From a virus, in IMG/VR virus record IMGVR_UViG_3300037882_001761, positions 1-30,809 of that record: DNA of 30,809 nt; one strand, written 5' to 3'. Position numbers and translations under genes: made by a program. Within the stretch, counting starts at the first letter, position 1. Each line of letters opens with the position of its first letter. The notes under the pieces were generated by a model that made no database searches, was not told the origin of the DNA, and saw only the letters and a list, made by a program, of their open reading frames with translations. Positions 4,822-30,625 of the stretch are shown in pieces.

Positions 4822-5481
4822 ATGCCGAAAAAAAAGATTCCAACGACCGTGCGCGAGACGATGGACAAGCGCCGCACCGTTAGTTCGTTGGTAAGAAAAT
4901 ACGATCGAAAGAAACCGCCGCCGAAGGTCAACCTTAATCAGCGGAAGTTTTTGGCGGCCTATCGCGGCTGCTTGTCGATCGGCAAAGCTGGCAAGATCGC
5001 GGGCGTTGGACCGTACACCCATTACTACTGGATCATTCACGACCCGGACTATGAAAAGTCTTTCTATTCGATTCACGAAGAGGTTGCGCAGCAACTCGAA
5101 TCGGAAGCCTTCCGCCGGGCGTTTGATGGCCAACGAAAGCTGGTCACGCACAACGGCAAGCCGGTGTTTGTGTTCGTGAATGCGGATGGCGAAGTTGTTG
5201 ACGAGGAAATGGAAAACATCAAAGGAGTCCGGAAGGTTCCGCTGTACGAGGAATCCCGTTCGGATGCCATTTTTCTCCAGCTATTAAAGGCCAAATTCCC
5301 AGAAGTGTATCGCGATAAAACGGAATCAACAGTAAACGCCAACATCGAGCATTCGTCTAAAGTCGTAGCCTACTTGCCAGAAAAAGAAAATGATAATGAC
5401 GTCGCCGGAAACATTACCACCGCCACCGGAAACGATCATCCGGCCGCACCGGGGACCGCAAGAGAAGTTCCTGGCGAGTAA
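4822..5481 (+). CDS. terminase small subunit (candidate)
   Basis: The 219-residue protein is very basic at the N-terminus (MPKKKIPTTVRETMDKRR), then has a helix-turn-helix-like region (NQRKFLAAYRGCLSIGKAGK ... VGPYTHYYWI, about residues 35-75). This is the pattern of phage terminase small subunits of the type that recognise packaging sites: 'FL..Y....s...A...agV....yyW...D..' followed by helices. A central oligomerisation-like region and a C-terminal segment 'AIFLQLLKAKFPEVYRDK' are also typical. It is directly upstream of, and overlaps, the large subunit gene by 92 bases. Role: recognise phage DNA and regulate the packaging motor. The assignment rests on pattern and position. Confidence 0.75.
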   Translation: MPKKKIPTTVRETMDKRRTVSSLVRKYDRKKPPPKVNLNQRKFLAAYRGCLSIGKAGKIAGVGPYTHYYWIIHDPDYEKSFYSIHEEVAQQLESEAFRRAFDGQRKLVTHNGKPVFVFVNADGEVVDEEMENIKGVRKVPLYEESRSDAIFLQLLKAKFPEVYRDKTESTVNANIEHSSKVVAYLPEKENDNDVAGNITTATGNDHPAAPGTAREVPGE

Positions 5482-6883
5482 CGCGGATATAGCCATCTAT
5501 GGCGGGAGTGCCGGGAGCGGAAAAACGGTCGCAATGTTGATGGAGCCGTTGCGACACGTTCACGTTGCCAATTTCAACGCCGTGATTTTTCGACGCACCT
5601 CAGAGCAGGTTCGCATGGCGGGAGGGTTGTGGGATGAGTCGTGCAAAATGTATTCGTTGTTCGGTGCCAAGCCGCGTGAGCACACTTTGGAGTGGCGTTT
5701 TGCATCGGGGGCGAATGTTCGATTTGAGCAGCTTCAGTACGAAAATACGAAGCTCGATTATCAAGGCTCGCAGATTGCCTTGTTAGCTTTTGATGAGTTG
5801 ACCCATTTTAGCGACACGCAATTTTTCTACATGCTTTCCAGAAACCGCTCAACTTGTGGCGTGAAGCCTTACGTCCGCGCGACGTGCAACCCCGATTCGC
5901 GTTCGTGGGTGGCGAGGTTTATTTCGTGGTGGATCAATCCTGATTCTGGCTTGCCGATTCCAGAGCGGTCGGGAGTGAAGCGGTTTTTCGTGCGAGTGAA
6001 TGAAGACTTGATTTGGTCCGATAGTCGCAGCGAATTGGAAGCCAAGTATCCGGGGCAAATCGCCAAGTCGGTGACGTTCGTTCCGGCGAAGTTGGCCGAC
6101 AATAATACGTTGATGGAAAAAGACCCCAGCTATCTCGCCAACTTACTGGCGCAGCCACGGGTGGAACGTGAACGGCTGTTGCACGGCAATTGGAAAACAA
6201 GCGAGAATTCGATTGTCGATTTGTCGTGGTTGCGGTACTTCGACCAGCGGGGGGATGTGCTGTCGGTGTTGATCGGTGGGCAACTGAAAACGATTGACGC
6301 TCGCCAGTGCTCGCGGTTCGCGACGATCGACACGGCTGGATCGAGCCGGGATCGACTGGACGAATCGAAGGGCAAGCCATGTTCGTGGTCGGTGGTGGCG
6401 GTTTGGGATTATTGGACGGCCGCGAATCTGCTGTTCTTGCGGCATATCTGGCGGGACCGTGTGGGGTGGAATCAGTTGAAGGACCGAGTGCCATCCGTGC
6501 TGAAAACGTGGGGAGTGCATAAAGTTTACATCGAAAACGCGCACGTCGGGCCAGCGTTGCGCGACGAGTTGGAAGGGTTCAATCGGGAGATGGTCGGACC
6601 GATGATTCACGGCATGACCGATTCCGGGCGCGGAGCCAAATTAGAGCGGGCGATTGCTTCCGGCGTGTTGGGCAGAATTGAAGACGGGTTGTATTTTTTG
6701 CCGAGTGTGGCAACGCCGTGGAAGGCCGATTACATCAATGAGTTGACGGCGTGGGGCGGGTTGCCGGATGAAACGGCGGATCAGATCGACGTAAGCAGCT
6801 ACGCGGCTTACGTGTGCAAGAAGCAGAATTCTAAGTGGGGGGGCGTGGTGAACGTCCCCATAAGTAACGGGATGCGTTTCTAA
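5390..6883 (+). CDS. terminase large subunit (packaging ATPase/nuclease)
   Basis: This 497-residue protein has the two-domain layout of TerL. The ATPase domain has a Walker A GGSAGSGKT (residues 38-46) and a Walker B LLAFDE (131-136, D135/E136). The C-terminal RNase H-like nuclease has three acidic positions: FATIDTAGS (D314), VYIENA (E382) and DQIDVSS (D467). It powers DNA translocation into the prohead through the portal and cuts the concatemer. Start ATG 5390 gives the conserved N-terminal adenine-binding-like region (RPHRGPQEKFL) and lies inside the small-subunit gene. The full usual length is present with no visible damage. Confidence 0.95.
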   Translation: MIMTSPETLPPPPETIIRPHRGPQEKFLASNADIAIYGGSAGSGKTVAMLMEPLRHVHVANFNAVIFRRTSEQVRMAGGLWDESCKMYSLFGAKPREHTLEWRFASGANVRFEQLQYENTKLDYQGSQIALLAFDELTHFSDTQFFYMLSRNRSTCGVKPYVRATCNPDSRSWVARFISWWINPDSGLPIPERSGVKRFFVRVNEDLIWSDSRSELEAKYPGQIAKSVTFVPAKLADNNTLMEKDPSYLANLLAQPRVERERLLHGNWKTSENSIVDLSWLRYFDQRGDVLSVLIGGQLKTIDARQCSRFATIDTAGSSRDRLDESKGKPCSWSVVAVWDYWTAANLLFLRHIWRDRVGWNQLKDRVPSVLKTWGVHKVYIENAHVGPALRDELEGFNREMVGPMIHGMTDSGRGAKLERAIASGVLGRIEDGLYFLPSVATPWKADYINELTAWGGLPDETADQIDVSSYAAYVCKKQNSKWGGVVNVPISNGMRF

Positions 6884-26710: not shown

Positions 26711-27246
26711 CAGACCGCTTCACCAAAAACTACGGCATGACTCTCGACCAGTTTCGAGCACTATCAAAAGCCAACCGCGAGCGAGTCATCAAGCGCGAGC
26801 CGATCGACCCCGCAGACGTGCCCAAGACGTGCCCCGTTCATTCGCCAGCGGCCAAGGCTAAGCGAATGGACGAATACCGGGAGAAGGTCGCCAAGCGTGC
26901 CACGGCTAAGGCTGGGGGCGTTGGCTGGCACCTAAAATCAATGATCGGCGAACTGACTTCGCAAAAGCTCGGCTGTGGCTGCGAATCCACGGCAAACGAA
27001 ATGGACCGCGACGGGCCGGAGAAAGTACGGGAGCGGCTGGATTATTACGTCGAAAAGATCAACCTAAATAGGCAAAAATGGACCTGGATAGAACAGGCTG
27101 AAATTGCACTGAAAGCGGCGACCCATGCTTTTGATTGGCACTTAGACCCGCTGAATCCAATTCGGTCGCTGGTTCTGGAATCAATTCGACGAGCCGAGCA
27201 CGGCAATCAGCACGAAGGCCAGCGGGATGGCCAAGAAGAAAAGTAG
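26707..27246 (+). CDS. unknown protein with a CGC motif
   Basis: ATG 26707 overlaps the preceding stop (ATGA); the longer frame from 26632 is antiphase in the Cys-rich gene. The 179 residues start with a helical segment (LDQFRALSKANRERVIKREP), include one TCPVH motif, a basic helix (AKRMDEYREKVAKRATAKAG) and, in the centre, KLGCGCESTANEMDRDGPEK, where the CxC may bind metal. The rest is helical with KWTWIEQAEIALKAATHAFD. It looks like a soluble phage accessory protein; I cannot name the family. It is the last gene of the long + strand series, and its 3' end is overlapped in antisense by a small gene (27181-27312). Confidence 0.6.
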   Translation: MTDRFTKNYGMTLDQFRALSKANRERVIKREPIDPADVPKTCPVHSPAAKAKRMDEYREKVAKRATAKAGGVGWHLKSMIGELTSQKLGCGCESTANEMDRDGPEKVRERLDYYVEKINLNRQKWTWIEQAEIALKAATHAFDWHLDPLNPIRSLVLESIRRAEHGNQHEGQRDGQEEK

Positions 27247-27312
27247 ACACCCGCAGCCCATCATGCCGAGTGAGCCTTCTGCGATCTTGCGTTCAAAGGA
27301 TTTCTTTGCCAT
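27181..27312 (-). CDS. 43-residue single-pass membrane peptide
   Basis: On the minus strand ATG (27312-27310) leads to a 43-codon frame ending TGA at 27183-27181. An AGGGGG site precedes the start by 9 bases. The product begins MAKKSFERKIAEGSLGM, then has a Cys/Gly patch (MMGCGCL) and one transmembrane helix (LFFLAIPLAFVLIAVLG). It overlaps the 3' end of the + strand gene by 66 bases in antisense. It is the last gene of a minus-strand trio. Expression is supported by the ribosome site and clean membrane profile, but not by homology. Confidence 0.5.
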   Translation of the reverse strand: MAKKSFERKIAEGSLGMMGCGCLLFFLAIPLAFVLIAVLGSSN

Positions 27313-27345
27313 CGATTCAACCCCCTACAAAGTTGCTATTCAGTC

Positions 27346-27588
27346 TTAGAGCACGCAATCCGGCACTTCCCCCACAAGATTGCCAAACGCATCGACCTTC
27401 AAATCCTCGTCGGGCTTGGAGTCGAGCGGATAATTCGTCTTGCCGCAGTTGCAAGTCTCGCTGCTTTGTGAGTGCCTATCACGGGTGGCAATCCAGCGAA
27501 CGTCCTGACAGTCGAAGCAGACGAAAAGACGCCAACCGTGGCGGGGTTCGTTGTCTTGTTCGCAGGTCGGGCCGAAAAGGTCAAACAT
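27346..27588 (-). CDS. small zinc-ribbon-like protein
   Basis: The start is ATG 27588 on the minus strand, with GAGGAAC about 9 bases ahead; an upstream TTG (27606) would overlap the previous gene further. The 80 residues contain GPTCEQDNEPRHGWRLFVCF, DCQD and TCNCGKTN: FVCFDC (CxxC) and CNCG (CxC) could clamp one zinc. The C-terminus is acidic (KPDEDLKVDAFGNLVGEVPD). Small zinc-ribbon proteins of this type are common among phages as accessory factors. The gene overlaps its upstream neighbour by 8 bases, so they are coupled. Confidence 0.65.
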   Translation of the reverse strand: MFDLFGPTCEQDNEPRHGWRLFVCFDCQDVRWIATRDRHSQSSETCNCGKTNYPLDSKPDEDLKVDAFGNLVGEVPDCVL

Positions 27589-27826
27589 GATTTGGTTCCT
27601 CAACAAACCGATAGTCTGCCGACGGAGGTTGATACTCGCCGTTAGGGTCAGGAAAAGGGCCTATACACTCGTAGCTGTTGAATGAGAAGTGCTTTTCCAA
27701 TCCGCTACTGGAAACTAGAAAGCGAAACGGCTCCCTCGGTTTAGGGACGTTCACGAACGACATGAACCTGTCTAAGAGAACTTCTTGACCGGCGTTTGGG
27801 CCGTCGATGAATTTGGCAATGAACAT
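27581..27826 (-). CDS. small unknown protein, first gene of the minus-strand trio
   Basis: ATG 27826 (minus) is preceded by AAAGGA (27839-27834). The 81-residue protein begins MFIAKFIDGPNAGQEVLLDR, a beta-strand-like opening often seen in small phage proteins ('mf.akf.dGp..G...l'), followed by VPKPREPFRFLVSSSG and a tail with YECIGPFPDPNGEYQPP. No catalytic motif is seen. The coupling to the zinc-ribbon gene and the regulated region upstream (27827-28646) suggest an early or accessory operon. Function unknown. Confidence 0.65.
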   Translation of the reverse strand: MFIAKFIDGPNAGQEVLLDRFMSFVNVPKPREPFRFLVSSSGLEKHFSFNSYECIGPFPDPNGEYQPPSADYRFVEEPNHV

Positions 27827-27917
27827 GGGGAATTCCTTTCGATCCTATCGACTAGATGTTTTTCTTACTAACACACTCGGTTGACCAGCTATCGCTTTTG
27901 TTCGGTCTGAGCGGAGT

Positions 27918-27969
27918 GTGTCCCTTGAGAATTGAAAAACAAAAAAAGTTTTCAAAAACTCAAGGACAC
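27918..27969. repeat. long imperfect inverted repeat
   Basis: GTGTCCCTTGAG (27918-27929) pairs with CTCAAGGACAC (27959-27969) with one extra C; inside, TTGAAAAAC and GTTTTCAA pair around an A-rich loop. The overall stem is over 18 bp with small bulges. It is placed about 90 bases upstream of the minus-strand trio, so it may be an operator, a transcript-stabilising hairpin or an attachment-like site. Confidence 0.6.
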
Positions 27970-28180
27970 CAGCAATAGGAAAAGTGCTTTCGCTCCCGTC
28001 CCGGCCTTCGCTTGCTGTAGTGGCTTATTCTTCCGTCGCCACACTATCCCAACGTCACAGCTATCTTGGCCACGTCCCGGACACCTGAGCACGAACGCGG
28101 CTTACGGCTGTTATTCCTCACCTCTGACGGCTGACTGACCCCGCAGGTCGTCCGATCACATTCCGTCGTGATGTGTCGAT

Positions 28181-28222
28181 AAAAAAAGCCCGCTCGCCGA
28201 GAGGTAGGAAGGCGAACGGGCT
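28181..28222 (-). terminator. minus-strand intrinsic terminator, possibly attenuated
   Basis: AGCCCG(C)TCGCC (28187-28198) and GGCGA(A)CGGGCT (28211-28222) form an 11-bp stem with one mismatch and a 12-base loop. On the minus strand the stem is followed by seven T (complement of AAAAAAA at 28181-28187). Upstream segments on that strand can pair with its first arm, see 28204-28303. Confidence 0.65.
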
Positions 28223-28303
28223 AAAAGTCGTGCATGCGGCAGCGACGTAATTCAAAAAGATAACCTCACCAACGCATGCAAACTAGCCCGCCGAACTTCC
28301 TAC
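28204..28303 (-). promoter_or_regulatory. candidate antiterminator hairpin (attenuator element)
   Basis: Three nested arms pair across 100 bases: GTAGGAAG (28204-28211) with CTTCCTAC (28296-28303), CGGGCT (28217-28222) with AGCCCG (28285-28290), and TGCATGC (28231-28237) with GCATGCA (28274-28280). On a leftward transcript this long hairpin is made first and uses bases 28211-28222 that the terminator needs, so the two are mutually exclusive. Confidence 0.5.
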
Positions 28304-28395
28304 GGTTCAGCGAACGGGATCAATTTAGCCGAGCCGGGCTGTTGGTGTCAACAACAAATCCAGCCATGTGATCATCAAAAAAACCCCCAATTGTG

Positions 28396-28420
28396 ACCGT
28401 TGATTCACCGTTGATTCACC
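28396..28420. repeat. tandem ACCGTTGATTC repeat
   Basis: Two head-to-tail copies of the 11-bp unit ACCGTTGATTC (28396-28406, 28407-28417) plus ACC. Such spacing of one helical turn fits a protein-binding operator or iteron; nothing else identifies it. Confidence 0.55.
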
Positions 28421-28620
28421 GCCAACACCCCCACAAAGATAACCGCCAAACTCATCAAAAACCATCAATTCCGAGAAATTCCGTAAATTATTTTCAGCAG
28501 AAAAGCCCTTGTTTTGTAGCGGATTTGTGGCACTGCCCCTAGTTGTGGTTACGGGAAAATGATTTTGCGTATAGACACGGAAAGAGATTTAGTCGATAAC
28601 TAGAAAAGTAAGGAATGGGA

Positions 28621-28646
28621 AACAACTTCACTAAGGGGATTTGAAA
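28621..28646 (+). promoter_or_regulatory. conserved leader, copy 1
   Basis: Contains AACTTCACTAAGGGGAT then TTGAAA before the ATG at 28647; carries the AAGGGG ribosome site. It shares the core of three further copies upstream of genes at 29072, 29326 and 30037. Confidence 0.6.
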
Positions 28647-28997
28647 ATGGCTTTCATGAATCAAGAACGAAAGAACGAACTGGCTCCCGCAATCAAGAAT
28701 GTCTGCAAAAAGTACGGGGTCAAGGCAACGATTTCAGTTCGGCATCATTCGACGCTGGTTGTCACGATTCAAGAATCGAAGTTTGATGTTAACGGTCACG
28801 ACCAAGTTAACTACTACCACATCGACGACCATTATGAAGGTGAAAAGGCCGCGTTCTTGAACGAACTAAAAGACGCGATGATGGTAGGAAATCATGACGA
28901 TAGCGACTCAATGACCGACTACTTTAACGTTGGCTGGTACATCAGCATTAACTTCGGCCAGTGGAACAAGCCACACCGTAAACTGCAAGCTGCCTAA
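28647..28997 (+). CDS. conserved small phage protein (LPD29-like)
   Basis: The ATG at 28647 lies 8 bases after AAGGGG. The 116-residue protein has an N-terminal helix (ERKNELAPAIKNVCKKYG), a beta segment KATISVRHHSTLVVTIQES, a helix (FLNELKDAMMVGNHDDSDSM) and the final beta segment 'DYFNVGWYISINFGQWNKP'. I recall the 'VRHHSTL...' plus 'DYFdvGwY..i..G.W..P' combination from small proteins of phages and mobile elements, resembling the LPD29-type domain. Function is unknown. It is the first of the accessory genes that share the conserved leader. Confidence 0.7.
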   Translation: MAFMNQERKNELAPAIKNVCKKYGVKATISVRHHSTLVVTIQESKFDVNGHDQVNYYHIDDHYEGEKAAFLNELKDAMMVGNHDDSDSMTDYFNVGWYISINFGQWNKPHRKLQAA

Positions 28998-29024
28998 CCC
29001 ACTGACGAGGCCGGAAGGCCGAAA

Positions 29025-29071
29025 CCGCGAAAGCGGTCTGGGTTTAACACTTCACTAAGGGGAAACGAATC
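29025..29071 (+). promoter_or_regulatory. conserved leader, copy 2, with CCGC-GAAA-GCGG hairpin
   Basis: CCGC (29025-29028), GAAA loop and GCGG (29033-29036) form a small GNRA-capped stem, followed by TCTGGGTTTAACACTTCACTAAGGGG and the ATG at 29072. A second tetraloop-like stem GGCC/GGCC (29009-29020) lies just before it. Confidence 0.6.
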
Positions 29072-29275
29072 ATGAAAACGAAAGAAAAAATCGAAACGAT
29101 CTGCGGCAAAGTTATCTATCGCGACGCGAGCGGAGTCGGTCACGCTTGGAGGCCGGTTGCCGTGTCCGATCTGCCGGCCAACATTGCCGACGAGATTGCC
29201 GCGGAAATTATCGACGGCCGAAATGACAGCAGTCGCGACTTCGCCGCCTCCAACGGCCTGCACTACCGCTGGTAG
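29072..29275 (+). CDS. small unknown accessory protein
   Basis: ATG 29072 lies behind the AAGGGG of the conserved leader. The 67-residue protein begins MKTKEKIETICGKVIYRDAS and continues SGVGHAWRPVAVSDLPANIA and ADEIAAEIIDGRNDSS, compact and mixed alpha/beta with one Cys. No family is recognised. It is preceded and followed by leader copies, so each small gene appears to have its own translation unit. Confidence 0.6.
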   Translation: MKTKEKIETICGKVIYRDASGVGHAWRPVAVSDLPANIADEIAAEIIDGRNDSSRDFAASNGLHYRW

Positions 29276-29325
29276 GCGAAAGCGGTCTGGTTGGGCAAAA
29301 CAACTTCACTCAAGGGGATTTGAAA
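29276..29325 (+). promoter_or_regulatory. conserved leader, copy 3
   Basis: GCGAAAGCGGTCTGG, a short AAAAC spacer, then CAACTTCACTCAAGGGGAT and TTGAAA before ATG 29326. It starts directly after the stop of the preceding gene (29273-29275). Confidence 0.6.
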
Positions 29326-30403: not shown

Positions 30404-30625
30404 TTGAAAAAACAAAAACTCGGACGGCCGAAAAGACCAAAGCGTGGCCGTCCGCCGAAAGCGCCGGGAACGAAATACATGACGAAGATTCGCTTCGTGG
30501 GGCGAGTTACGGACCAAGATTGGGAAATAGTTTTGGAGAACTACGCACGAAGCGGGGAGAAGACTTTTACGGCTTTTGCGCGTGAGAGGCTGATGAAGCG
30601 AGCACGAACAAAAAAACAAGGATAA
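30404..30625 (+). CDS. small AT-hook-like protein
   Basis: Start at TTG 30404 (GGA 6 bases upstream) is chosen because an earlier start at 30359 would lie inside the terminator; ATG 30479 is the alternative and would lose the basic part. The 73 residues start with LGRPKRPKRGRPPKAPGTKY, carrying two GRP-type AT-hook-like cores, then VGRVTDQDWEIVLENYARSG and TFTAFARERLMKRA, which look like a short ribbon-helix-helix-like helical end. Possibly a DNA-binding regulator. Confidence 0.55.
   Translation: MKKQKLGRPKRPKRGRPPKAPGTKYMTKIRFVGRVTDQDWEIVLENYARSGEKTFTAFARERLMKRARTKKQG

Follow-up and report, generated by a model that had tools for sequence, protein, structure and literature searches.

Between two divergent groups of phage genes, the minus strand is predicted to fold, as RNA, into one long, unbranched rod, which ends at an intrinsic terminator and has a promoter-like site at its base. 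The structure is real and, relative to shuffled sequences, not due to chance, and the promoter-like site and the terminator fall where the ends of the rod would require them. Together, these elements fit a stand-alone small-RNA gene of the phage of ~135 nt, a reading to which we give about an even chance; the region is probably a small RNA gene rather than an on/off switch for its neighbours.

The window, i.e., the whole stretch of DNA that was analysed, is a 30,809-base virus record. Family matches among its proteins include the large and small terminase subunits, a Mu-type portal, a Mu F-like head protein, and head-tail and neck proteins, which together indicate a tailed phage whose head module is Mu-like. 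The large terminase subunit (5390–6883, plus strand) displays 61% identity over half its length to the terminase of Methanoculleus (archaeal) viruses, and 56% identity over 60% of its length to Rhizobium phages. The rod and terminator are located in an 814-base stretch (27827–28640) between a leftward trio of small ORFs, the first start codon of which is at 27826, and rightward genes that begin near 28641. ORFs in the region of the rod are short and overlap on both strands, and it therefore holds no likely gene; no tRNA was found in the window, and no RNA family of Rfam 15 matches it at gathering score. The ORF at 28641–28997 (plus strand, 118 aa) matches phrog_10415, which is of unknown function (E 2e-30), and has relatives in 63 phage records (tblastn). 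The matches listed for it are large phages (135–490 kb), those of Klebsiella, Sinorhizobium, and Methylophilales included, which sets this ORF apart from the Mu-like head genes of the window. Further terminator-like hairpins with T runs occur at 2052, 11603, and 30390 on the plus strand and at 30412 on the minus strand, and two tandem copies of CGTTGATTCAC are found at 28399–28422, upstream of the promoter-like site. The features of the region are:

27181–27826, minus strand: trio of small ORFs (81, 86, and 43 aa) with no family match; possible read-through target
27846–27864, minus strand: 19-bp motif, GAAAAACATCTAGTCGATA, ahead of the trio
28181–28187, minus strand: U7 tract, as sequence; its base 28187 doubles as the final pairing position of the short terminator
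28187–28222, minus strand: intrinsic terminator hairpin (12 bp, loop 28199–28210), alternative to the outer rod
28189–28318, minus strand: unbranched RNA rod with a closing helix (28189–28200/28307–28318, 12 bp), a middle helix (28204–28211/28296–28303, 8 bp), and inner helices up to 28252–28260
28286–28315, minus strand: upstream hairpin (−16.2 kcal/mol), the inverted counterpart of the terminator hairpin
28322–28351, minus strand: sigma-70-type promoter-like site (TTGACA, 18 nt, TAAATT; 10/12 matches)
28580–28598, plus strand: second copy of the 19-bp motif, ahead of the rightward genes

The original prediction described a terminator and a long hairpin of three arms that compete for the same bases, and this structural part holds. 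The terminator stem consists of 12 uninterrupted pairs, one of them G-U, with a loop of 12 and an energy of −23.3 kcal/mol, and is followed at once by the seven U at 28187–28181. It thus has the GC-rich stem and U tract of an intrinsic (Rho-independent) terminator, and as a sequence signal it would mark the 3′ end of a small RNA. The long hairpin (28204–28303) folds into the three expected helical segments (28204–28211/28296–28303, 28213–28222/28285–28293, and 28226–28238/28273–28284; −49.5 kcal/mol alone) and has 28204–28222 in common with the terminator, so that the two folds are mutually exclusive. What had been missed is that the long hairpin extends outward by another 12 bp, the closing helix of the rod. 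The minimum-energy fold of 28181–28318 on the minus strand is indeed a single rod of −73.4 kcal/mol that consumes both terminator arms, compared to −64.6 for the same transcript with the short terminator forced. Since the 3′ strand of the rod also contains the terminator hairpin, the end of the putative gene is part of the structure.

The minus-strand fold is better than any of 200 dinucleotide shuffles (z −7.1), whereas the plus-strand fold is weaker (z −4.1; one of 200 shuffles as good). When 3,067 segments of 140 bases were scored on both strands, the rod had the lowest composition-corrected score of all 6,134. A scan of 1,091 U tracts covered 34 sources, namely the window itself plus 33 loci, some overlapping, from related phages. 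Only here is an unbranched rod closed against the U tract by a helix of 12 bp, the next unbranched ones having at most 8 bp. The second candidate of that scan (L099, +16248) was rejected, as it falls within a possible ORF and does not outperform its shuffles (z −0.83). Differences between the rod arms favour a minus-strand RNA, being mostly G-U pairs on that strand (seven, versus one A-C that corresponds to G-U on the plus strand; about 0.07 two-sided), but the numbers are small and the arm alignment scored every mismatch alike. The loops of the terminator hairpin and of the 28286–28315 hairpin have seven consecutive complementary bases, a run that 56 of 20,000 loop shuffles equalled. Any rod should have such complementary loops in its arms, but they would also permit the two hairpins to form a kissing pair.

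The best promoter-like site of the window is in the right place to serve, by sequence match, as the own 5′ promoter of a small RNA. It is the sole site with at least 10/12 matches on either strand (61.6 kb of strand, in which 12 sites reach at least 9), with the −10 hexamer TAAATT matching at only 4/6 positions. Assuming the usual spacing of about seven bases, transcription is predicted to start at ~28315 (range 28317–28313), at most three bases from the outer end of the rod. From the 12 sites over 61.6 kb, the chance of finding a site of at least 9/12 with its start within three bases of a given place is near 0.0014. Two promoter-like sites were found in the region 26900–29300 versus 1.7 expected, and the presence of such a site as such therefore means little. 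The one upstream of the rod is the only minus-strand site of at least 9/12 in that region. As none of at least 9/12 is found between the terminator and the trio, the trio is left without an obvious promoter of its own.

How the transcript would fold as it emerges was addressed by nascent-chain folding, an equilibrium calculation that leaves folding rates, polymerase pausing, and proteins outside the model. For starts at 28316, 28400, and 28500, the middle helix of the rod has a probability of 0.88–0.99 once 28204 is exposed, i.e., before the 3′ arm of the terminator emerges. The closing helix follows the middle helix, and the probability of the short terminator is 0.00. The long fold is therefore made first on a leftward transcript, as had been anticipated. 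The middle helix has a probability of at least 0.97 for all tested starts from 28315 upward. Folding of the leftward transcript from about 28400, a check proposed with the original prediction, gives the rod with bases 28189–28192 paired at a probability of at least 0.97, as do starts at 28318, 28319, and 28320; for a start at 28470, 28190–28192 are paired at that level and 28189 at 0.39. In the rod too, a stem is thus placed right beside the U tract for starts at or upstream of 28318. For such starts, the idea that the long hairpin acts as an antiterminator is not supported: the 3′ arm is not released but paired with 28307–28318, the rod stops one base ahead of the U tract, and both folds accordingly look like terminators, with no clear antiterminator between them.

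The outcome shifts within a few bases of the start. Starts at 28317 or 28316 leave one or two 3′-arm bases unpaired, and a start at G28315 leaves three, with the rod at −65.7 and the terminator fold at −64.4; for a start at 28312, the two folds are equal in energy. The U tract lacks an adjacent stem in the rod fold for starts at 28315 or later, but not for those at 28318 or upstream. Because the number of free 3′-arm bases varies with the start, passage of the polymerase past the rod would depend on the start site, and the start predicted from the promoter-like site (28315) is the point where the two folds become nearly equal.

The proposal that the trio comprises the controlled genes stands in part. 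The only promoter-like site of at least 9/12 available to it is located upstream of the rod, but the trio lies apart, with 355 nt between the U tract and its first start codon, and has a separate leader and a motif of its own. The leader directly before it (27826–27990, minus strand) is structured (z −4.2; none of 200 shuffles as good). Within it, 27841–27980 contains two neighbouring hairpins, one U-rich and the other formed by ACACACTC/GAGTGTGT, with a closing helix that takes in part of the 19-bp motif. This motif is present ahead of both divergent gene groups as the inverted pattern GAAARASATYTAGTCGATA, with two copies in the window (at most three mismatches) versus 0.02 expected; the pattern was itself derived from the two copies, and a motif alignment that failed to bring them into register over their 19 bases was left unused. 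The motif may be an operator or part of a phage promoter, and its placement suggests that the trio and the rightward genes share a control site for which the rod would not be needed. The lack of a promoter-like site of at least 9/12 between terminator and trio speaks against this.

Near relatives of the phage were found only as metagenome-derived records. The terminase alignment yielded 80 loci; 23 of these records, together with that of one close relative found in the capsid search (L002, 74% identity), were searched further, and the rod sequence matched none of the 24 related records. The record of the close relative is a 4,491-base fragment without the rod region. An alignment of the MuF protein gave 28 loci with head and tail genes in common (38–45% for the better MuF matches). 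None of these contains the trio, the 28641–28997 ORF, or the rod element, many ending before the corresponding place, and their DNA matches to the intergenic stretch are 14–19 bases only. The largest record with a related capsid (G004) is syntenic through the MuF protein and then has no comparable rod. Nothing for the element came from the tail protein or the first trio protein as queries in viral_contigs, from the terminase as a single protein in viral_contigs and genome_contigs, or from the capsid alignment in genome_contigs. The 19-base pattern, with 17 fixed bases, had no match in viral_contigs, and the whole intergenic stretch gave nothing in phages; a single 35-base match (E 0.8) in the search of phages and plasmids was taken as chance. 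The sole locus obtained with the 28641–28997 ORF (L003) was dropped, since its 18 matched residues lie inside an unrelated long ORF.

The rod can be compared with known RNA classes. Leader attenuators of the terminator/antiterminator kind have two mutually exclusive hairpins, of which the upstream one forms first. The rod is like them in both respects, but it shows no sensor, its long fold, too, has a closing stem near the U tract, and the targets are far downstream. 6S RNA (RF00013) is a rod-shaped RNA, and the present rod resembles it in shape but has no large central bubble; there is no match to the 6S model among the Rfam models even at E 10. Indeed, no Rfam family found near the rod at E values up to 10 approaches its gathering score. 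The match to Atu_C7 reaches 19.9 bits versus a gathering score of 45 and was rejected, as it falls mainly on the terminator half. An attC site and a retron RNA appear unlikely; no terminal core motif was seen by eye, and no reverse transcriptase was named among the ORFs scanned against PHROGs.

Known phage RNAs offer further parallels. Lambda OOP, P22 sar, and P1/P7 c4 are antisense to a phage gene, OOP having its own promoter (PMC12197685). Like OOP and other phage antisense RNAs, the rod would be a short phage RNA in a regulatory region, but it has no complement beyond chance in the window, where the longest exact complement is 11 bases, as in shuffles. The nearest published case considered is IsrK of the Salmonella prophage Gifsy-1, where a single promoter gives rise to a small phage RNA and, by read-through of a share of transcripts, to an mRNA on which the short RNA acts in trans; two alternative folds are predicted at −85.66 and −84.21 kcal/mol (PMC4825925). 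Like IsrK, the putative RNA would be phage-borne and end at an intrinsic terminator of its own, with small ORFs following on its strand and two near-equal folds. For IsrK, transcript and read-through are described, whereas for the rod both would be predictions from sequence. The resemblance is one of layout and not of membership.

Three other explanations have to be weighed against a small RNA gene. Transcription attenuation of the trio, in which the rod would let the polymerase pass, the short terminator would stop it, and some factor would shift the balance, seems unlikely to us. It draws on the exclusive folds, one of them a terminator and the rod made first, on the position of the sole promoter-like site for the trio upstream of both, and on the 1.3 kcal/mol that separate the folds for a start at G28315, where the rod stops 4 bases ahead of the U tract and is thus possibly a poor terminator. 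Against this stand the closure of the rod beside the U tract for starts at 28318 or upstream, the 355-nt gap to a trio with its own motif and structured leader, and the lack of a visible trigger: no leader peptide is evident, no aptamer was seen, and no Rfam family reaches gathering score. A sturdy terminator that merely halts leftward transcription before the trio, its RNA being without function, would account for the strong stem with U7 and for the position between divergent gene groups. Such an insulator needs 36 nt, however, and leaves unexplained the extra 95 nt of the rod, the complementary loops, and the orientation of a promoter-like site toward the base of the rod, which makes it quite doubtful.

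Finally, the structure could be a DNA-level inverted repeat, i.e., a cruciform or a replication or recombination site, that folds as RNA by accident and perhaps arose by inverted duplication of the terminator hairpin. The two hairpins are inverted copies, loops included, and direct repeats lie nearby at 28399–28422. This reading is nonetheless decidedly improbable, given that the minus-strand RNA folds much better, that the arm differences are mostly minus-strand G-U, and that the U tract and the promoter-like site are on that same strand. Very improbable, in our estimate, is a dual-purpose, IsrK-like RNA tuned by its start: G28315 would give a nearly isoenergetic, switchable leader and a start a few bases earlier a locked, terminated rod, and the released short RNA would act in trans on nascent leaders via the complementary loops, thereby setting read-through into the trio.

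We thus return to the small RNA gene, for which the arrangement suggests a simple model. RNA polymerase would start at the promoter-like site (28351–28322), proceed leftward for about 131–138 nt, and stop at the U7 tract, and the product would fold into one long, nearly perfect, and stable rod. Transcription of the region, efficient termination, and a regulatory role of the RNA, through base-pairing or protein binding, are what we infer from this arrangement of signals. Several results count against the model: the searches gave no homologue of the element, the −10 hexamer matches at only 4/6 positions, the window contains no antisense target beyond chance, no Rfam family reaches gathering score, and the trio would be left without an obvious promoter. 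The terminator would incidentally shield the trio from the promoter-like site at 28351–28322. If transcribed, the rod would be a phage small RNA not yet on file, to which no Rfam 15 family is related at gathering score, and its overlap with the terminator would make it a clean system in which to ask if a long hairpin that zippers up is able to terminate transcription by itself.
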